Source of the DNA: Silvanigrellaceae bacterium
GTDB lineage: Bacteria > Bdellovibrionota_B > Oligoflexia > Silvanigrellales > CANGWC01
Direction of reading: 5' to 3'
NCBI GenBank assembly: GCA_947457515.1
Contig: CANGWC010000006.1
Location: 1 to 40,451, forward strand
DNA: 40,451 bases
Shown here: one piece after another, positions 121 to 33,634 of the stretch
Layout: each line of letters opens with the position of its first letter
Numbering within the stretch: position 1 is the first letter of the stretch
Notes under the pieces: generated by a model
What the model was told of the DNA's origin: nothing
Databases searched by the model: none
Seen by the model: only the letters and a program-made list of their open reading frames with translations
Made by a program: the position numbers and the translations under genes

Positions 121-473
121 AGCTCTTATCCCGAACTCACGTTATTAGTATCATTATGAAACTTATCAAAGAATCCATAGAACAGAAATTCGAACCTTTT
201 CCAGGTTTTATAGGTTTGGCGCATGATTTTTTATTTGAGTTGACTCAGGAATTACGTGTACAACTTAACTTAATATTTACAGAGAGTAGCGATTTGCTTG
301 ATAGAATGAGTGATAGTGAGTCGGAAGTTTATCAGGAAGGATTAACTGATAATCCATTCCAACTACCAAGTCATATTGAGAAAGCAATGAGTATATTAGA
401 AAGATATGAAAAATGGCTTATGGAAACAAAGGATTCCTATGAACTAAAACTTCAAAAAATCAGCTCTTTATAG
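117..473 (+). CDS. Small helical protein of unknown function, paralogous to 847..1158 (real start may be the internal Met at 156)
   Basis: ORF. Shares GLxHxFLxxxTQExRxQL...ILERYxKWLxxTKxxYELKL with the ORF at 847..1158. Confidence 0.6.
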   Translation: MKLLSRTHVISIIMKLIKESIEQKFEPFPGFIGLAHDFLFELTQELRVQLNLIFTESSDLLDRMSDSESEVYQEGLTDNPFQLPSHIEKAMSILERYEKWLMETKDSYELKLQKISSL

Positions 474-545
474 TGAATTTTCTATTTAAAAAACAAGTGA
501 TTATAAACATTTGTTTTTGAGGATTTTTGAAGGTATGCATAGTCG

Positions 546-836
546 ATGAGCACTCTAAAAAATCAAAAATATCTCTACTGTTTTTTCATTATTGTAAGTT
601 TCCAGACTTTAATTGCGCAAGAGCTTTATAATAGAGTTAAATATATTAATGGTAGTTTACATCAAAGTGGTTACGTATATGATCAATTAGGTTTTGAAGC
701 TATACGTCAAGGGATGCCCATTAAAGTTGCATTACAGCAAGACATTGACATGATCACCACAAGGATAGATAGTTTTTGTCGTTATGGCTATACATCGAAA
801 TTTTTAGAAGAATTAGCTCAAAAAAAAAGAGAGTAA
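546..836 (+). CDS. Small predicted secreted protein, unknown function
   Basis: ORF with N-terminal hydrophobic signal-like segment (YLYCFFIIVSFQTLIAQ). Confidence 0.55.
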   Translation: MSTLKNQKYLYCFFIIVSFQTLIAQELYNRVKYINGSLHQSGYVYDQLGFEAIRQGMPIKVALQQDIDMITTRIDSFCRYGYTSKFLEELAQKKRE

Positions 837-846
837 CCTTGGTCTT

Positions 847-1158
847 ATGGTTGCCTGCATGTTTGTATCATCGTCAATAGAGCCGGAGCATTGCTGTTTT
901 GATGGATTAATACATAATTTTTTATATCAGCCGACTCAGGAATCAAGAGAGCAACTTGAGTTATTATGGAAGGAGAGTCTTGAGCTGTTCAATAAAATCA
1001 GTGATGATAGCAGTTCAAAATTAAATCACTATGAAGGATCACCAAGTAACGCTGAGGCAACACTCAATATCTTAGAAAGATATCAAAAATGGCTCACAGA
1101 TACAAAAGTTGCATATGAACTTAAACTTGAAGACATCATCATGCTCTCGAGACACTGA
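847..1158 (+). CDS. Small helical protein of unknown function, paralogous to 117..473
   Basis: ORF. Conserved block shared with 117..473 (TQESREQLELLWKESLELFNKIS / ILERYQKWLTDTKVAYELKLEDI). Confidence 0.6.
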   Translation: MVACMFVSSSIEPEHCCFDGLIHNFLYQPTQESREQLELLWKESLELFNKISDDSSSKLNHYEGSPSNAEATLNILERYQKWLTDTKVAYELKLEDIIMLSRH

Positions 1159-1177
1159 TTCCTAATCCCTAAGAGTC

Positions 1178-1822
1178 TTATTCAATACTCACACCAATGG
1201 TTAAACCCATATCGATTCTAAATGCTGTCATAGAATTCAAAATATCACTTCGAGTTCTACGCCAAGTATCAGAAAAAGAACCATTTAGCCCTTGCTGAAT
1301 ATCACTATCTAATATCCTAGGTTCAGGGATGTTCATTCCCCCACCAAAGTATCCAGAGATAGTTAACCCAGAGAATGAGGTCATGCGGTATCCAAAGTTT
1401 ACGGTAGGAGAGAATATCCATAAAGAGTTTTTGGCTTCTGTAGAGCCAATGAGGATATTCCAATCATTTTTCCCTGTAAGAAGTTTAAGTCCAAAGAATA
1501 CTCCATCCATAGCATCTAAAGGATAGAATCGAACTTGGGGACCAATTCCTATGTAACCAATTCTCACAACTTGGGTAGAGTTATCTGTAATTTTATTTTG
1601 AAGATATTGAACTTCAGTTCCTAAAGAGAATTTCTTACCTAACCAAAATTCCCCTTGAAATGATAGTGTTCTTCGATAAAGAAGCAGAGGATTAATTTCA
1701 AGAATATAGGAAGACTTGGGGGAGGTTGGTCGAAATTTTTTCCCAGAATAATCTGCTTGTTGTTCAAAGTTTTGTTCAAAAGGGAGTTGTTCTCCCTGCG
1801 GTGGGGTATAACTTAATAACAC
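1178..1822 (-). CDS. Predicted beta-barrel / outer-membrane-like protein
   Basis: Beta-rich sequence with alternating aromatics. GTG start preceded by AGGAG that overlaps the stop codon of the upstream gene. Confidence 0.6.
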   Translation of the reverse strand: MLLSYTPPQGEQLPFEQNFEQQADYSGKKFRPTSPKSSYILEINPLLLYRRTLSFQGEFWLGKKFSLGTEVQYLQNKITDNSTQVVRIGYIGIGPQVRFYPLDAMDGVFFGLKLLTGKNDWNILIGSTEAKNSLWIFSPTVNFGYRMTSFSGLTISGYFGGGMNIPEPRILDSDIQQGLNGSFSDTWRRTRSDILNSMTAFRIDMGLTIGVSIE

Positions 1823-1831
1823 AAAGTTCTC

Positions 1832-2560
1832 CTAAGAGTGTTCTTGAAAAAGAGGTTTCCAATAATCACGAGTGACGTTTAATCTCTGACAAAGATGATA
1901 TAAAACTTGAGACGGTGCATCAATATAATCTCCAGATTTATTCAGTTTCGAAAAATTCTTAATATAAAAAGTAGATTGATTAACTTGTTTTTGTGAAACA
2001 AGATTATGAAAAACATTATTAATAAATCCTTCAATTTGAACATCTAAAGGTATTCCAATTCTTAATTTCACATGATTTGAAAGATGAACTTTATGAGGGT
2101 TAATCAAAAAAACCTTATCGATTTTTTCTGGGAAAGATAAACAAGCTCCTAAAGCAAGGTAACAACCCATTCCTTGTGCTAATAAAACCAGAGGATAATT
2201 AATATTAAGTTGAGACTCCATGTAATTTTGAACCAGAGATGGTGTTTGTAGGAAAAGAGCAAAATCAAGTTCAGTTTTATATTTTTTACTATGTCCATCC
2301 CATAGAAAATATAAAATGCTATAACCTTTTTGCAAAAGTTTACTGATCCAATCAGATTTGGTCAGGAGATCATGATTACCCAGATCATGAATCATAAGAA
2401 TAGTTTTGCGAATAGGAATTAAAGGTTTAATATGAAAAGCTGAAGATAATCCAGAAGCAATGGGGACTTCTAAAATACTGACTTCAAAGGAATCTTTTGA
2501 ATCTAAGTTTTTAAGAGTTTCTGTCTCTGGAAAAAGATTTATATGAGCTAAGGGTTCCAT
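1832..2560 (-). CDS. Alpha/beta-hydrolase-fold protein with degenerate nucleophile elbow
   Basis: Hydrolase-like layout (TILMIHDLGNHDLL... YPLVLLAQGMGCYLALGACL... KVFLINPH) but no Ser in the GxSxG position. Confidence 0.6.
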   Translation of the reverse strand: MEPLAHINLFPETETLKNLDSKDSFEVSILEVPIASGLSSAFHIKPLIPIRKTILMIHDLGNHDLLTKSDWISKLLQKGYSILYFLWDGHSKKYKTELDFALFLQTPSLVQNYMESQLNINYPLVLLAQGMGCYLALGACLSFPEKIDKVFLINPHKVHLSNHVKLRIGIPLDVQIEGFINNVFHNLVSQKQVNQSTFYIKNFSKLNKSGDYIDAPSQVLYHLCQRLNVTRDYWKPLFQEHS

Positions 2561-2579
2561 AACGAAAGGATATCATAAA

Positions 2580-2900
2580 GTGTCATCTATCGAGATCACT
2601 CCTCAAGATTTTTTAAAACAATATGATCCTAAAAATCATATTGTTCTAGATGTTCGCCAAGACTGGGAAATAAAAATTGCTTTTTATGATAAGGCTCAAA
2701 TATTAAATGCCCATAATTTTGATTCTTGGATACAAGCAAGTCAGGATTATTCCCGTATATTTATTTTATGTCACCATGGTGTGAGATCACTCCATGCAGC
2801 AAAAATGTTTCAAGATCATAAAGTCACTCATGTTCAGAGTATTCAGGGAGGAATAGACGCTTTAGGAGATCTTCTTGAGCCACCTTTAGCAAAATACTAA
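2580..2900 (+). CDS. Rhodanese-like domain protein
   Basis: Single-domain rhodanese layout: IVLDVRQDWE, active-site loop CHHGVRS, VQSIQGGIDAL. GTG start. Confidence 0.88.
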   Translation: MSSIEITPQDFLKQYDPKNHIVLDVRQDWEIKIAFYDKAQILNAHNFDSWIQASQDYSRIFILCHHGVRSLHAAKMFQDHKVTHVQSIQGGIDALGDLLEPPLAKY

Positions 2901-2922
2901 ACGTACATCGAAAAAATATTCA

Positions 2923-3495
2923 ATGCTTAATACAATCTCTTTACTTGTGATCCCCCATTTATCAATGCCTTTCATAGAGGTAACAGAGCCGTTTGGTTTC
3001 TTTAAAGAGGTGCCCTCACAAATTTGTATAAACTTATCTGAGGAATTACCTCACGCCACACATATTCAATGTACAAGTACGGAGAGTGAACAGAACTTAT
3101 GTTTTATAAAGCAAAAACAGGTATGCTTTTTGCCACAAGAAATCCCTCATTTTCAGAATTCTATGGGTAATTTTATTTGGAATTTCAAACTTAATGTTGT
3201 TTTTTTAGGAGAGGTGATTGAAAGTGAGCAGATTAAAATAGAACAATTACATCTTAACCATCGACCCCAAATTATTTTTTTAGATAAAAACACTCGAAGT
3301 TGTCATTTCCAGGTTTTAGATGAAGATAAAGATGAATTACAAATAGAAATCTGTTTTCTTCCTGATCAAGTGTGTCATAAAACAAAGTCACAAAACGATA
3401 TTTTTAAATTTGATCTTAAAAAATCACAAAAAGGCTGTAGTGTAAAAGTGTCCGATGGAGTTTTATTTGATTTCAAGAAGAGCTATGAATTTTGA
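2923..3495 (+). CDS. Hypothetical cysteine-containing protein
   Basis: 190-aa ORF between rhodanese and the ldcA-mpl fusion. No recognised domain. Confidence 0.55.
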   Translation: MLNTISLLVIPHLSMPFIEVTEPFGFFKEVPSQICINLSEELPHATHIQCTSTESEQNLCFIKQKQVCFLPQEIPHFQNSMGNFIWNFKLNVVFLGEVIESEQIKIEQLHLNHRPQIIFLDKNTRSCHFQVLDEDKDELQIEICFLPDQVCHKTKSQNDIFKFDLKKSQKGCSVKVSDGVLFDFKKSYEF

Positions 3496-3519
3496 AAGAC
3501 GTTGTGATAATGTCTTTTT

Positions 3520-5895
3520 ATGTCATTCAAAGTACTTGTTATTTCTCCTGCCCGTAAAGCTCAAGATCAGCACAATCAGTTTCCTGAATCTTTATTTCCA
3601 AAATTAGAATGTCCTATTGGGATTACAAGTGGTCCTCCATATGAAAGAGCCGCACTTCTTTCACAAGCTCTCACATCTCGTAAAAATGATGTTCTCTGGT
3701 GTGCAAGAGGTGGATATGGAGGAACTGAAATAGCGCCCCTTCTTTCCTATCTATTGCCTAAAGTGATTGCACCTAAGGTCTTTATAGGTTTTTCGGATAA
3801 TTCTTATTTAGGGATTATCCTCTCTACTGTTTTTAAAGATGTCACCTATATCCATTCTGATCACGCGCATCAGGATATGGAAAATAGACCATATGGAAAC
3901 ATTCTTAAAACTTATTTGTTAGAAGGTAAATTTCCAGACTTTGTTGAGTTTCCTTATGTAAAGCAGTGGGGGATCACTCAAGCACTCTCTGGGCCACTCA
4001 TCCCTATCAACCTAAGCTTAGCAGAAAGTTTATGCTCATTACCGCAATTTGAAATTCCATTAGGAGCTATTCTTTTCTTAGAGGACTGCGAAGAAGAACC
4101 CTATAAAATCCATCGAAAAATTGATTCTCTTATCAATCGGGGGTGGATAGCTCGATGTGGTGCTATAGTCTTTGGAAGGTATACTCAGGATACAAAAGAT
4201 ATTCCTGATGAAGCCATGATATCTTTTTTAGATGTAATGGCATCTAAGCTCCAAAAACCTGTTGTTTATCTCCCTATTTTTGGACATAGCCAAGAAAGAT
4301 TTCCCTTAGTCGCTCACTCTATTGTGACTTTGGAGCCTGACAAACTTAAACTCTCTTTTTCCAAAGATTCAAATCAAGAATACAATATTCAATATTCAGA
4401 TCTTTTTCCATGGAGTAAAGTACACTCTATCCATTTTTCAGGTATTGCAGGCACAGGAATGGTTGCAGCAGCGAGATTAGCTATAGATGGAGGGTATAGG
4501 GTTACTGGGAGTGATCAAATAAAAATTTACCCTCCTATGGATAAAGTCGTAGAAGATCTTAACGTAACTATCCATAAAGGATATTCAAAAGATAACATTT
4601 TAAACAATAACCCCGATCTTGTTGTGGTTTCTAATGCATTATCTTTAGTTGGGCCCGATCTTAAACCTCATCCAGAGGTGACTCAACTCTTAAATATGAG
4701 ATTACCTTTTACAAGTTTCCCTAGATTTCTTTCGAAAACATTTTTAGAAAAATCTCAAAACATTGTTGTTACAGGAACTCACGGAAAGACAACAACAACA
4801 TGGACTTTGATACATCTTTTCCAGGAGTTAAACTTAAATCCTTCTTATTTTGTGGGAGGAGCTTCAGCTAATCCTAAACAAAATAAGAGTGCTGCACTGG
4901 GTGATCAGAATCTTTTTATTATGGAAGGCGATGAATACGATACAGCTTTATTTGATAAAGGCCCTAAATTTTTACATTATCACCCTAAAATATTACTGGT
5001 TAACCCTGTAGAATATGATCATGTAGATATTTATGCTTCTTTAGAAGCTATTATTCAAGAATTTCAAAGACTCCTCAATTTATTGATAATCAATAAAGGA
5101 ACAGCTGTGGTTCATTGGCCCACAACTTTAGAGGAAGCTTTAAAGAGAATTGCTCAATCAGAAAGTTATCAAAAAGATTTTAAGATCTTTTGTTTCACAG
5201 ATCAGGATTCAAAAGAAGACTGTTCCTATCCTTTATGGAAAATTGAAAAAAGAGAACCACTTCCTGATGGACAAAGAATCACAATCAGAACACCGCAGGG
5301 GGAGATAAAAGAATTCTTTATTAAACTCAAAGGAAGACATAATGCTTTAAATACCCTAGGAGCTTTAGCGTCTTATCATGCAATGTACCCGGAACAAGAT
5401 CTTGAAAAAGCAATGGAAGCTTTAGGAACTTTCTTAGGGGTTCAAAGAAGACTCCAGGATTATGGATCAGTCAATAATGTTAGAGTCTATGATGATTTTG
5501 CACATCATCCTACGGCGATGAAGATGGGAATACTCACAGTTAAAGAATGTCATCCAGATTCTCGAATACTTCTGTGTTTTGAACCTAAAAATGCAACCAT
5601 GAGAAGGAATATTTTTCAAAATGAACTGATAGAAGTTTTGAAAATGGTTTCCAAGGTGTATCTTTGTCACCCACCACAAGATGAAAGGATCTCACAGGAA
5701 AATAGACTCGATCCTAAGCTCATTGAAAAACAACTGAAGAATGATGTTTTTAATTTTTATGATTACGAGAAGCTTTTTGAGAGTCTTAAGGGTGAAATCA
5801 AAAAAGGTGATGTTGTGATCTTCATGTCCAGCGGATCTTTTGGAGAACTCCCCCAGAAAACAATAGAATTTCTGAAATCTCATCGTGATTTTTAA
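3520..5895 (+). CDS. Fusion protein: LD-carboxypeptidase (LdcA/S66 family) + UDP-N-acetylmuramate:L-Ala-gamma-D-Glu-meso-DAP ligase (Mpl, MurC-like)
   Basis: N-terminal half: ARGGYGG, GFSDNS, LEDCEEEPYKIHRKI and GHS (S66 Ser/Glu/His positions). C-terminal half: SGIAGTGMVAAA, VTGTHGKTTTT, MEGDEYDTALFDKGPKF, NALNTLGA, DDFAHHPTA (Mpl/Mur ligase). Confidence 0.92.
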   Translation: MSFKVLVISPARKAQDQHNQFPESLFPKLECPIGITSGPPYERAALLSQALTSRKNDVLWCARGGYGGTEIAPLLSYLLPKVIAPKVFIGFSDNSYLGIILSTVFKDVTYIHSDHAHQDMENRPYGNILKTYLLEGKFPDFVEFPYVKQWGITQALSGPLIPINLSLAESLCSLPQFEIPLGAILFLEDCEEEPYKIHRKIDSLINRGWIARCGAIVFGRYTQDTKDIPDEAMISFLDVMASKLQKPVVYLPIFGHSQERFPLVAHSIVTLEPDKLKLSFSKDSNQEYNIQYSDLFPWSKVHSIHFSGIAGTGMVAAARLAIDGGYRVTGSDQIKIYPPMDKVVEDLNVTIHKGYSKDNILNNNPDLVVVSNALSLVGPDLKPHPEVTQLLNMRLPFTSFPRFLSKTFLEKSQNIVVTGTHGKTTTTWTLIHLFQELNLNPSYFVGGASANPKQNKSAALGDQNLFIMEGDEYDTALFDKGPKFLHYHPKILLVNPVEYDHVDIYASLEAIIQEFQRLLNLLIINKGTAVVHWPTTLEEALKRIAQSESYQKDFKIFCFTDQDSKEDCSYPLWKIEKREPLPDGQRITIRTPQGEIKEFFIKLKGRHNALNTLGALASYHAMYPEQDLEKAMEALGTFLGVQRRLQDYGSVNNVRVYDDFAHHPTAMKMGILTVKECHPDSRILLCFEPKNATMRRNIFQNELIEVLKMVSKVYLCHPPQDERISQENRLDPKLIEKQLKNDVFNFYDYEKLFESLKGEIKKGDVVIFMSSGSFGELPQKTIEFLKSHRDF

Positions 5896-7006
5896 GTTAC
5901 TTATTCTCATTATTCTAACAGGGTGTCTTTCCACACAAGAGCAAAAGACACCTGAAATCAAAGAAGAATTGATGTTTAGTTCTTCTGAAGAATTAAACTT
6001 TCTTTTAGCAGAAGATTTTTTGACTCAGGGGAAATTCAAAGAAGCAGAAAAAATTTATCTCCAGATATTTGAAAAGAACCCTAATTTCATTGTTGGGCAA
6101 AAACTTTTCATATTAAGCCTAGGTCAGAAACAACTTGAGTCTGCTATTATGTATGCAAATAAACTTCATGTAATGTTTCCTAAAAGAACAGAGCCCATTC
6201 TATGGTTATCTGATTTACATAGATTACAAGGTGATTCTCAAAGTTCTTTTTCTATTCTCAGAGAAGGAAGCCAGGATGATCCTCTTATCGTTCAGAAAAT
6301 CAGCGAAAAACTTTTCGAGAATTTCCAAAATTATTTAGATCAAGGTCTTGAGGCTAAAGCATTACAAAGTTTAAATGAAATTGAAAAAAATTACTTATTT
6401 AATGAACAAAGTTACATCATGCTCATTATGGGTTACCAACGACTCAAAAACTATTCAAAAAGTACACAGGTTCTTAAGGAAGCTCAGGGGATATACCCGC
6501 ATTCTAGAGATCTTGAATTTCAAGAAATCATTTTAGTAGAATTTATAGAATCAATAGATAAAGCTATAGAAAAAATGGAGAGTTTCATTATTAAGTATCC
6601 TCAATTTGGTAAGGGGTTAAATTATTTAGGTTATGCCTATATTCTTAAATCGACTCAATTAGAAAAAGGCTATTCTTTGATCCAAAGAGCCTTAGAATGT
6701 GAGCCAAAGAATCCCTATTTTAAAGACTCGCTAGGTTGGGCTGAATATCACAGAGAAAATTATAGGGAGGCTCTTAAGATTTTTGAGGAAGCATTAAAAT
6801 TAGACTCGGAAGAACCTATTATCTATTTTCATCAAGGTAAAACATATTTAAAACTAGAAAAGTTTGATAAAGCTCAGGTAGCTTTTGATAAGGCTTTAAA
6901 GCTGATAGAAAAGAAAAGTCAAAAATTTTTAGATCCAGAAGTTCTCTCTATATTAGATGAACTTCATGAACAACTCAAAAAACTTCAAAACCATAAATCA
7001 GGATAA
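5885..7006 (+). CDS. TPR-repeat lipoprotein
   Basis: GTG start, lipobox (LIILTGC), multiple TPR motifs (GYAYILKSTQLEKGYSLIQRALECEPKNP; AEYHRENYREALKIFEEALKLDSEEP). Confidence 0.85.
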   Translation: MIFKLLILIILTGCLSTQEQKTPEIKEELMFSSSEELNFLLAEDFLTQGKFKEAEKIYLQIFEKNPNFIVGQKLFILSLGQKQLESAIMYANKLHVMFPKRTEPILWLSDLHRLQGDSQSSFSILREGSQDDPLIVQKISEKLFENFQNYLDQGLEAKALQSLNEIEKNYLFNEQSYIMLIMGYQRLKNYSKSTQVLKEAQGIYPHSRDLEFQEIILVEFIESIDKAIEKMESFIIKYPQFGKGLNYLGYAYILKSTQLEKGYSLIQRALECEPKNPYFKDSLGWAEYHRENYREALKIFEEALKLDSEEPIIYFHQGKTYLKLEKFDKAQVAFDKALKLIEKKSQKFLDPEVLSILDELHEQLKKLQNHKSG

Positions 7007-30494: not shown

Positions 30495-31988
30495 ATGAAG
30501 CTTTTTATTTCTCTATGTGTTTTTACAATAATGATAAGTATCATTATTTTTCCTAAAAGTCATACTCCTTTTTCATTGGTGGTTGCAATGGAAACAAAAC
30601 CGAGCACTTTGGACCCTAGATGGATTGGGGGAGATGTGAATGCTCAGTATTTAGAAGAACTTCTGTTTTTGCCGCTCGTGAGTTTTGATCCTCAGGGTGA
30701 ACATATGAATGTTATTGCAGAAAGTATAGATTCTCAGGATGGGAAAGTCTGGCGTATTAAACTCAAAAAAGGAGTCTTCTTTGGAAATGGTCAAGAGATC
30801 ACATCTTTAGATGTCGTAGCTACCTATCAGTATTTTTTGGGACCATTAGCTCCTCGAAGAAGCAGTTTTAAAGATGTGATACTGATTAAAGAGATCAATG
30901 CTTATGAATTAGAAATTCATTTGAAAGCACCCTATGTCGCTTTTCCCACGAATTTAACCATTGGAATCCTTCCTAAAGATATCTTCACTCAGAAAGAAAT
31001 CAGTCTGAGTGGATTAGAGTCGGGTCCTTATAAATCAGAATCACAAGAAGATGATAAGTGGTTCTTTGTGCCCAATCCTCGATATAAGAAAGCAGTTAAT
31101 CCTTGGATTTCAGTTCCTAAGATACCTTTAACCATTAAATTTATCCCGGATCCTATGGCTAGGTTAAGTGTTCTGATGAATGGTGATGCAGATCTTCTTC
31201 AAAGATCTTTAGATATGGATAGAATTTATTTTCTTCAAAATCAGTCTCAATATCATCTTAATATTGATTTCGCTCCGAGTTTGGAAACAACTTATTTAGC
31301 TTTTAAGATGGATAATCCCCAGGTTTCATCTTTAGAAGTGAGGAGGAAACTCAAAAACAGCCTGAATATTCCTGAAATTTTAAAAGCATTATTCCATGGG
31401 TATGCAACGGAGGCTAAAGGCATGTTTCCTTCTGTATTTCCCTATTTTTATTCTAGTCATGAGGATCTGAATACCTCAGGTTCTCCGGGTGAGCTTGATG
31501 ATATGACATTGACTTTAAGCACAGCTAGAGAGTCTCAAATTGTGGCTAAAGTGTTACAAGCACAATGGAAAGAAGCAGGAGTCAATATTAAGCTAACTGT
31601 TTTAGAACCAAGTCTATTCCAAAAAGTCATTCAAAATGGGGGAGCTATGATGTGGCTTGGATCATGGATAGGGTATAAAGATCCTGATCATTTAAGATTT
31701 GTTTTTCATTCAGAATCTATCCCTCCGTTTGGAGGTAACAGAGGAAGGTTCCGTAATGCGAAAGTTGATAAAGCATTAAAACTCGGCATGGTTTCTTTAA
31801 ATCATCAGTTACGTAAGTCTTATTATAATGAGGCTCAAGAAGAACTCAATAGAAATATACCCTATATTTATTTATGGCATAGAGATAATTTTGTTATCAT
31901 GTCTCAACAAATTAAAAATTTTCAAATCTTTAGAGATGGAAGATATCTCGGAGTGACTCAAGTCGAAAAAAATGAAATACGTTCGTAA
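30495..31988 (+). CDS. Peptide ABC transporter substrate-binding protein (SBP family 5, DppA/OppA-like)
   Basis: METKPSTLDPRWIGGDVNAQYLEELLFLPLVSFD; WRIKLKKGVFFGNGQEITSLDVVATYQ; SLNIPEILKALFHGYATEAKGMFP. Confidence 0.92.
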   Translation: MKLFISLCVFTIMISIIIFPKSHTPFSLVVAMETKPSTLDPRWIGGDVNAQYLEELLFLPLVSFDPQGEHMNVIAESIDSQDGKVWRIKLKKGVFFGNGQEITSLDVVATYQYFLGPLAPRRSSFKDVILIKEINAYELEIHLKAPYVAFPTNLTIGILPKDIFTQKEISLSGLESGPYKSESQEDDKWFFVPNPRYKKAVNPWISVPKIPLTIKFIPDPMARLSVLMNGDADLLQRSLDMDRIYFLQNQSQYHLNIDFAPSLETTYLAFKMDNPQVSSLEVRRKLKNSLNIPEILKALFHGYATEAKGMFPSVFPYFYSSHEDLNTSGSPGELDDMTLTLSTARESQIVAKVLQAQWKEAGVNIKLTVLEPSLFQKVIQNGGAMMWLGSWIGYKDPDHLRFVFHSESIPPFGGNRGRFRNAKVDKALKLGMVSLNHQLRKSYYNEAQEELNRNIPYIYLWHRDNFVIMSQQIKNFQIFRDGRYLGVTQVEKNEIRS

Positions 31989-32877
31989 AATATTATCTTT
32001 ATTATTGAGTTTATGGTTATTGCTGACCATTATTTTTTTCTTACAAAGATTACTTCCAGGGAATCCTGCAGAACTGATTTTAGGAGTTGATGCTTCGGAG
32101 GAATCTAAAAGAATTTGGTTGCAACAACATGGAATGGATCTTTCTTTAATCACTCAATATCAAAATTATTTTTTAGGTCTGTTGAAAGGGAATTTAGGAA
32201 TTACCTATTTTGATGGCACGGAGATCACACCCCTTTTATTGAAAAGATTAGGTGTTTCTATGCAGCTTGGTTTCTTTGCGTATATTGTTGCTCTTTTGGG
32301 AGCCATGCTTGCTCTTTATTTTTCGGAAAGAAATCAATTCTTAAAAAGCATCATTAAAAATGCTGCTTTTGTTTCAGCTTCTTTACCTGGATCTATTTTG
32401 GGTCCTATCCTGATTTGGCTTTTTGCTGTGAAGTTTCAAGTTTTTCCCGTGGGAGGGATGCAGGGAAGCATATCTTTAATTCTTCCTATGATCACTTTAG
32501 CCGTTCCTTTAATGGGTAACCAATTTAGATATTTAGAATCCACTATAAAAGATATTTCTCTTAAAGAATTTATTCGTGTGGCTCGAGCTAAAGGTGTCAG
32601 TGAACACAAACTTTTTATGACACATAAGTTAACATTGCTTTTCTATGCAGCACTTCCTATTTTTTCTTTACAATTAGGAGCTCTTCTCACAGGAGTGGTC
32701 ATCACTGAAGTTGTGTTTTCTTATCCAGGTTTAGGAACGTTAACTTTACAATCTGTTTTAATGAGAGAGTATTCATTAGCATCTGCTTGTGTTTTAGTAA
32801 CAGCAACCATGTATATTATTATAAATACCTTAACTGATTTATTTTTAAGTATGAAGGATCCTCGAAGATATGGCTAA
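31972..32877 (+). CDS. Peptide ABC transporter permease (DppB-like)
   Basis: LQRLLPGNPAELILG; EFIRVARAKGVSEHKLFMTHKL; TEVVFSYPGLGTLTLQSVLMREY. Confidence 0.94.
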   Translation: MKYVRKILSLLLSLWLLLTIIFFLQRLLPGNPAELILGVDASEESKRIWLQQHGMDLSLITQYQNYFLGLLKGNLGITYFDGTEITPLLLKRLGVSMQLGFFAYIVALLGAMLALYFSERNQFLKSIIKNAAFVSASLPGSILGPILIWLFAVKFQVFPVGGMQGSISLILPMITLAVPLMGNQFRYLESTIKDISLKEFIRVARAKGVSEHKLFMTHKLTLLFYAALPIFSLQLGALLTGVVITEVVFSYPGLGTLTLQSVLMREYSLASACVLVTATMYIIINTLTDLFLSMKDPRRYG

Positions 32878-33634
32878 AAAGTTTTCTTTTACCATTATTG
32901 CAATATGGTTTGCTCTCTGTCTGTATTCTTATTTTTATATCACAGCTCCGGGTATTGAACTGAGCCAAAGACTCATTCCTCCGGGAAGCCTTTATTTTTT
33001 AGGGACAAATCATTTAGGTCAAAGTTTACTCGTGATTATGGTTTATTCTCTCCCAGTATCTCTTTGGATCTCTTTAATGACAGCTTTTTTTTGTGTGATT
33101 TTAGGGATTATATTAGGAAGTTTAGGTGGATTGAAATCAGGAATATTTAAAGAAGTGATTAATCGTATTATGGATATTTTTATCTCTTTCCCTCCGTTAG
33201 TTTTGCCTTTAGTGATCTATATGTTCATAGGAGCAAGAATTGAAGGGATCATCCTTGCTTTAACTTTGAGTCATTGGGTGCCATTTGCAAAACTGATTCA
33301 AAATCAAATGGAAGTCTTAAAATATCAGCCTTTTGCTGTTGCAAGTAAGGCTTTAGGGTCTACTGAATGGAGAGTTTGGTTGATTCATCTTTTGCCACAA
33401 TGTATCACACCTATGATCCTACAGATCTCTTTATCTGTTCCAAGTTTTATTTTATCAGAAACAGCGTTAAGTTTTTTAGGTTTAGGATTAGAAAGAGAAT
33501 CTATTGGTACTCTTTTGAGTGATGGTAGATTATATTTATTTGATGCCCCATATCTTGTGATATTCCCGTCTCTACTGCTTTTGTTAATTGTTGTAGCATG
33601 GAATACACTAGGGGAATCGTTTCATAGGAGTTAG
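32870..33634 (+). CDS. Peptide ABC transporter permease (DppC-like)
   Basis: FLGTNHLGQSLLVIMVYSLPVSLWISL; MDIFISFPPLVLPLVI; ASKALGSTEWRVWLIHLLPQCI; ETALSFLGLGLE. Confidence 0.94.
   Translation: MAKKFSFTIIAIWFALCLYSYFYITAPGIELSQRLIPPGSLYFLGTNHLGQSLLVIMVYSLPVSLWISLMTAFFCVILGIILGSLGGLKSGIFKEVINRIMDIFISFPPLVLPLVIYMFIGARIEGIILALTLSHWVPFAKLIQNQMEVLKYQPFAVASKALGSTEWRVWLIHLLPQCITPMILQISLSVPSFILSETALSFLGLGLERESIGTLLSDGRLYLFDAPYLVIFPSLLLLLIVVAWNTLGESFHRS

Follow-up and report, generated by a model that had tools for sequence, protein, structure and literature searches.

The window, here the whole 40,451-nucleotide stretch that was analyzed, is a contig of a 1.17-Mb, 68-contig, 74%-complete genome of a Silvanigrellaceae bacterium. 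Near its start it encodes a 791-residue protein in which an LdcA-like peptidase of family S66 is joined to a complete ligase of the Mpl (murein peptide ligase) type (Table 1). The original prediction, made from the sequence alone, described one continuous open reading frame with an S66 half followed by an Mpl half, a boundary near position 4410, and intact catalytic motifs on both sides. All these features are borne out. The gene is a single frame of 791 codons, whose chance of staying open at the local base composition is about 1e-25, and its coding periodicity runs on across the LdcA/Mpl junction. The S66 and Mur_ligase domains all score above their Pfam cut-offs, so that the proposed HMM check does recover S66 in the N-terminal half. 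Every quoted motif is found, namely GFSD (residues 90 to 93), LEDCEEEPYKIHR (187 to 199), and GHS (255 to 257) in the S66 half and GTHGKTTTT (419 to 427) and MEGDEYDTALFDK (468 to 480) in the ligase half. The boundary falls within a linker, with the flanking domains ending at residue 268 and starting at residue 304 (approximately positions 4324 to 4428). As there is no in-frame ATG, GTG, or TTG codon from the end of the S66 domain to the glycine loop of the Mur ligase in this frame, separate initiation of Mpl is not expected. In the relatives, the candidate start codons share no conserved position, and an internal start in the linker was rejected as a reading. The protein is divergent, with approximately 40% identity to other fusions and long branches, and its full-length structural model (pLDDT, 79) places the domains with only moderate confidence. 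Upstream of the gene, two small similar ORFs (positions 117 to 473, 118 residues, and 847 to 1158, 103 residues) flank an unrelated ORF of 96 residues; the two look like paralogues.

Table 1. Coordinates of the fusion gene, its domains and predicted functional residues, and a transporter locus in the same window
Feature	Position	Strand	Basis or remark
LdcA-Mpl fusion gene	3520..5895	+	791 aa, ATG start
S66 N-terminal domain, aa 1-155	3520..3984	+	Pfam Peptidase_S66, aa 36-103
Ser92, predicted S66 nucleophile (GFSD)	3793..3795	+	Aligns with Ser115 of P. aeruginosa LdcA (PaLdcA)
S66 C-terminal domain, aa 157-268	3988..4323	+	Pfam Peptidase_S66C
Glu188, predicted triad Glu	4081..4083	+	Aligns with Glu217 of PaLdcA
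His256, predicted triad His	4285..4287	+	Aligns with His285 of PaLdcA
Interdomain linker, ~20 residues (aa 283-303)	4366..4428	+	Low-confidence stretch in models
Mur ligase N-terminal UDP-MurNAc-binding domain, aa 304-406	4429..4737	+	Pfam Mur_ligase, above cut-off
Mur ligase middle ATPase domain, aa 417-618	4768..5373	+	Pfam Mur_ligase_M, above cut-off; GTHGKTTTT at aa 419-427
Mpl-specific loop EYDTALFDK, aa 472-480	4933..4959	+	Signature positions listed in PMC3060825
Mur ligase C-terminal peptide-binding domain, aa 643-772	5446..5835	+	Pfam Mur_ligase_C, above cut-off
Opp/Nik-type ABC transporter	30495..33634		SBP_bac_5 binding protein and two permeases

The S66 half matches Peptidase_S66 at residues 36 to 103 (49.7 bits; cut-off, 25) and Peptidase_S66C at residues 157 to 268 (62.6 bits; cut-off, 23.7). 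The position of the predicted nucleophile is occupied by Ser in all 57 homologues, that of Glu188 by Glu in 55 of the 57 and by Asp in the other 2, and that of His256 by His in all 56 alignment rows that have a residue there; the Ser-Glu-His triad is unchanged in every fused protein. The N terminus of this half had been thought to be shortened, and comparison with its relatives agrees: strand β1 (VLVISPA) is retained, and some 12 to 20 residues, where the relatives have their first helix, are absent or unalignable. The triad residues lie outside this reduced helix. The model of the S66 half (pLDDT, 89.8; pTM, 0.89) has its best PDB matches among LD-carboxypeptidases, with TM scores of at most 0.77, and these rank ahead of MccF. 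Some g2 genomes encode a second, unlinked S66 protein of approximately 360 residues (L131 to L134), which groups with the S66 proteins of Bdellovibrionales and not with the fused clade.

The ligase half contains most of the signature residues of Mpl, with positions taken from the enzyme PaMpl (PMC3060825). These include Tyr337, Asn372, the loop at residues 472 to 480, and, in the C-terminal domain, the RR (643 to 644) and DDFAHHP (658 to 664) motifs, the latter with the listed residues Phe660 to His663. The Mpl-conserved Arg73 of PaMpl corresponds to Leu376 in this protein and to Arg in most of its relatives, and Gly91 corresponds to Phe400. The ligase scores 277 bits against the equivalog cut-off of 388.7 for Mpl (NCBIfam TIGR01081) and 240.5 bits against that of 335.1 for MurC (TIGR01082). 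The Mpl cut-off is also missed by an unfused Mpl from the same class (362.4) and by the fused protein of the relative G007 (317.4), so that it marks a limit for annotation and does not define the family. In a quick tree, the ligase groups within the Mpl proteins and outside MurC.

A whole-genome search found the same architecture, in frame, in 13 further genomes from this order, each assembled independently and two of them as a single contig. The fusion is present in 14 of 14 assessable genomes; the sole member of the order without it is G014, a 72%-complete assembly in which the mpl match starts at base 9 of its contig. The taxonomic survey proposed with the original prediction confines the fusion to this one order among the genomes surveyed. 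No in-frame fusion was found in 43 further genomes of the class, where S66 and mpl are separate neighboring genes, in that order, with stop codons between them. Among the matches listed for the best few candidates per genome, a ranking that a fusion would have topped, there was none in 291 other Bdellovibrionota or in 247 Acidobacteriota; Myxococcota and Desulfobacterota were covered by single loci only. An apparent independent fusion in G048 (an “812-aa open frame”) was rejected, as three stop codons separate its two ORFs. Adjoining but separate S66 and mpl genes are also found in Acidobacteriota and other phyla. With the fusion inside the order and adjoining separate genes elsewhere in the class, the order marks the boundary between operon and fusion. 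In quick maximum-likelihood trees of each half, all fused Mpl halves fall into one clade (SH-aLRT, 97), in which the window protein is basal and which is sister to the unfused Mpl proteins of the class (support for the joint clade, 99); the MurC of G007 lies outside all Mpl proteins. The fused S66 halves likewise form one clade (support, 100) on a branch of 1.77. Since the tree of each half joins all fusions in one clade, a single operon-to-fusion event is likely, and, on the simplest reading, neighboring ldcA and mpl genes fused once, in an ancestor shared by the order. The gene is, then, a true fusion that joins two known recycling enzymes and is conserved throughout its clade.

In several genomes of Myxococcota, Desulfobacterota, and Bdellovibrionales (L039, L051, L088, L089, L091, and L096), S66 and mpl are separated by a serine beta-lactamase-like gene, confirmed as PF00144 for L089 and L091; this arrangement suggests a recycling cluster of three genes.

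In the known pathway of murein peptide recycling, AmpD frees the tetrapeptide, an L,D-carboxypeptidase takes off D-Ala, Mpl loads the tripeptide on UDP-MurNAc, and completion falls to MurF. The view that LdcA and Mpl catalyze consecutive steps is supported. The genome encodes AmpD (265.6 bits; NCBIfam cut-off, 143), a NagZ-like GH3 protein, and a MurF-like ligase, the last assigned by reading its sequence. AmpG was not found in this 74%-complete genome. Within the order, strong AmpG matches are found in genera g3 and g5, whereas five near-complete g2 genomes have no credible match (a comparison of G001, G002, G003, G005, and G007 with G006, G008, G010, and G012); the distribution of Amidase_2 proteins is nearly opposite to that of AmpG. 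Other bacteria that lack AmpG take up muropeptides via an ABC system, which in Agrobacterium is YejBEF-YepA (PMC9790009). The window contains an Opp/Nik-type transporter (Table 1) with no recognized ATPase gene adjoining it within the window, and a link of this transporter to recycling is speculation.

The dcw cluster of the same genome has the order murE-mraY-murD-ftsW-(ftsQ-like ORF)-ftsZ (L154, positions 397 to 4767, G000:C9); the ftsQ-like ORF, of 234 residues, directly follows ftsW and precedes ftsZ. In the relative G007, the order is ftsW-murC-ftsQ-ftsA-ftsZ (L155). Neither murC nor ftsA was found in the 1.17-Mb, 74%-complete assembly. Elsewhere in this genome, a FolC-like ORF continues, with no intervening stop codon, into an LptD-like outer membrane protein (L156, positions 2857 to 6564, G000:C22), giving a 1,236-codon frame that matches Mur_ligase_M/C and LptD_2 in Pfam. 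This second stopless join in the genome is odd, because LptD needs a signal peptide.

Taken together, the fusion is very probably a cytoplasmic bifunctional murein-recycling enzyme that arose from an ancestral ldcA-mpl gene pair. Both halves look active, and a one-polypeptide recycling enzyme with two predicted activities is a sound prediction; the activities of the halves, the order in which they act, and the advantage of joining them are inferences from the observed fusion, its conservation, the S66 fold and triad, the Mpl placement, the operon precursor, and the presence of AmpD and a NagZ-like GH3. Points that speak against this reading are the divergence of the window protein, its reduced N terminus, its score below the Mpl cut-off, the Leu at the Arg73 position, and the lack of an AmpG match in this incomplete genome. 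AmpD would free L-Ala-γ-D-Glu-mDAP-D-Ala from recycled anhydromuropeptides. Through Ser92, Glu188, and His256, the S66 half would then cut the terminal D-Ala off this tetrapeptide, and the Mpl half would use ATP to join the tripeptide to UDP-MurNAc, yielding the UDP-MurNAc-tripeptide for MurF. The probable selective value lies in coupling in cis, which would give each Mpl active site its own L,D-carboxypeptidase. The tetrapeptide could then lose its D-Ala either ahead of ligation or once it is attached to UDP-MurNAc, which would prevent a build-up of dead-end tetrapeptide precursors. A reason for such coupling is provided by two earlier studies. PaMpl turns over the tripeptide at 260 per min and the tetrapeptide at 5.9 per min (PMC3060825). 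In Acinetobacter baumannii without the recycling L,D-carboxypeptidase, Mpl loads the tetrapeptide, which leads to UDP-MurNAc-tetrapeptide and toxic dead-end stems, and the defect is suppressed by loss of mpl (PMC8649774).

The order of the two steps allows more than one reading. The original prediction saw substrate channeling in the fusion, which finds no support here; simple tethering or post-ligation editing fits the fusion equally well. True channeling, a stronger version of the bifunctional enzyme in which the tripeptide would be handed straight from the S66 to the Mpl active site before it can equilibrate with the cytoplasm, is unlikely: the reactions are consecutive within one chain and the fusion is conserved, but a short flexible linker does not by itself confer channeling and the full-length model (pLDDT, 79) is only moderately confident. 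Editing is possible but still doubtful. In this variant of the bifunctional enzyme, with the steps reversed, Mpl would load the tetrapeptide first and the S66 domain would then act as a proofreading domain, trimming UDP-MurNAc-tetrapeptide. It is consistent with the slow use of the tetrapeptide by Mpl (PMC3060825) and with the dead-end UDP-linked product that builds up in ldcA mutants of Escherichia coli, as stated in PMC5646250, and likewise in A. baumannii without the recycling carboxypeptidase (PMC8649774). However, PaMpl favors the tripeptide approximately 44-fold (PMC3060825), so that trimming first should dominate unless the Mpl of the window has a relaxed specificity. Trimming first, editing, and direct handover cannot be told apart from sequence.

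Other readings question one of the halves or the joint itself. An S66 half that is inactive, structural, or of another specificity, e.g., MccF-like, might be suspected from the long branch of the fused S66 clade (1.77) and the reduced first helix of the window protein. The triad, however, is invariant in the fused proteins and aligned to that of PaLdcA, LdcA structures rank above MccF, and constraint is retained across two families, all of which makes a nonworking peptidase highly improbable. A ligase half that acts as MurC, the L-Ala ligase, or also as MurC, has a slim chance at best. It would fit an assembly without murC, the empty syntenic place between ftsW and ftsQ, and the small gap between the mpl and murC scores (277 versus 240). 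Nevertheless, the ligase belongs to the Mpl clade, apart from MurC, and retains the signature residues of the Mpl loop and C-terminal domain; murC may sit in the missing part of the 74%-complete genome; G007, a relative that has the same fusion, keeps a murC; and PaMpl uses L-Ala very poorly (0.7 versus 260 per min; PMC3060825). As 26% of the genome is missing, murC has more likely moved than been lost, and the presence of murD and murE speaks for continued synthesis of UDP-MurNAc-L-Ala. It is very improbable that the lineage has truly lost murC and that the fusion is its only UDP-MurNAc-loading enzyme, in which case the cell wall would need salvaged peptides or an L-Ala-accepting Mpl. As for an assembly or sequencing error that joined two genes, the source assembly is fragmented and incomplete, but the in-frame fusion recurs in 13 other assemblies, single-contig genomes included, and periodicity is unbroken at the junction; an artefact is ruled out at the level of the clade and has a negligible probability for the window.

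If both activities of the bifunctional recycling enzyme are confirmed, it would represent a natural enzyme that carries out two successive recycling steps with a single chain. Such a fusion would provide direct genomic evidence that the L,D-carboxypeptidase and Mpl form a functional unit, in line with what the genetics of A. baumannii suggests, and a handy reagent for establishing the order of trimming and ligation. The conserved ldcA-mpl pair in several phyla flags recycling L,D-carboxypeptidases where S66 proteins are hard to assign. No description of an LdcA/Mpl fusion or operon was found in the open-licence literature searched; both enzymes are already known, and what is new is an architecture undescribed in that literature.

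Each half has close counterparts among known proteins. LdcA (MEROPS family S66; P. aeruginosa PA5198, PDB 1zrs, and E. coli LdcA, PDB 5z01) has the same fold as the S66 half and the same triad order and motifs, but is a stand-alone protein of approximately 305 to 310 residues, whereas the S66 half is fused to a ligase and has a reduced first helix. The ligase half shares with Mpl (e.g., P. arcticus Mpl, PDB 3hn7) the three Mur domains, the GTHGKT and EYD..FDK loops, the RR and DDFAHHP signatures, and clade membership; it differs from known Mpl proteins in the added N-terminal S66 domain, the score below the NCBI equivalog cut-off, and the Leu in place of Arg73. The ldcA-mpl pairs of the class and of Acidobacteriota (L015 to L030, L037, L040, and L044) encode the same enzymes in the same order and direction, but as two ORFs parted by stop codons. 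Precedents for fusing consecutive enzymes of cell wall precursor synthesis are MurC-Ddl (NCBIfam PRK14573) and MurE-MurF (PRK11929). In contrast to these fusions, which join biosynthetic steps, LdcA-Mpl joins two recycling steps, one of them catalyzed by a peptidase.
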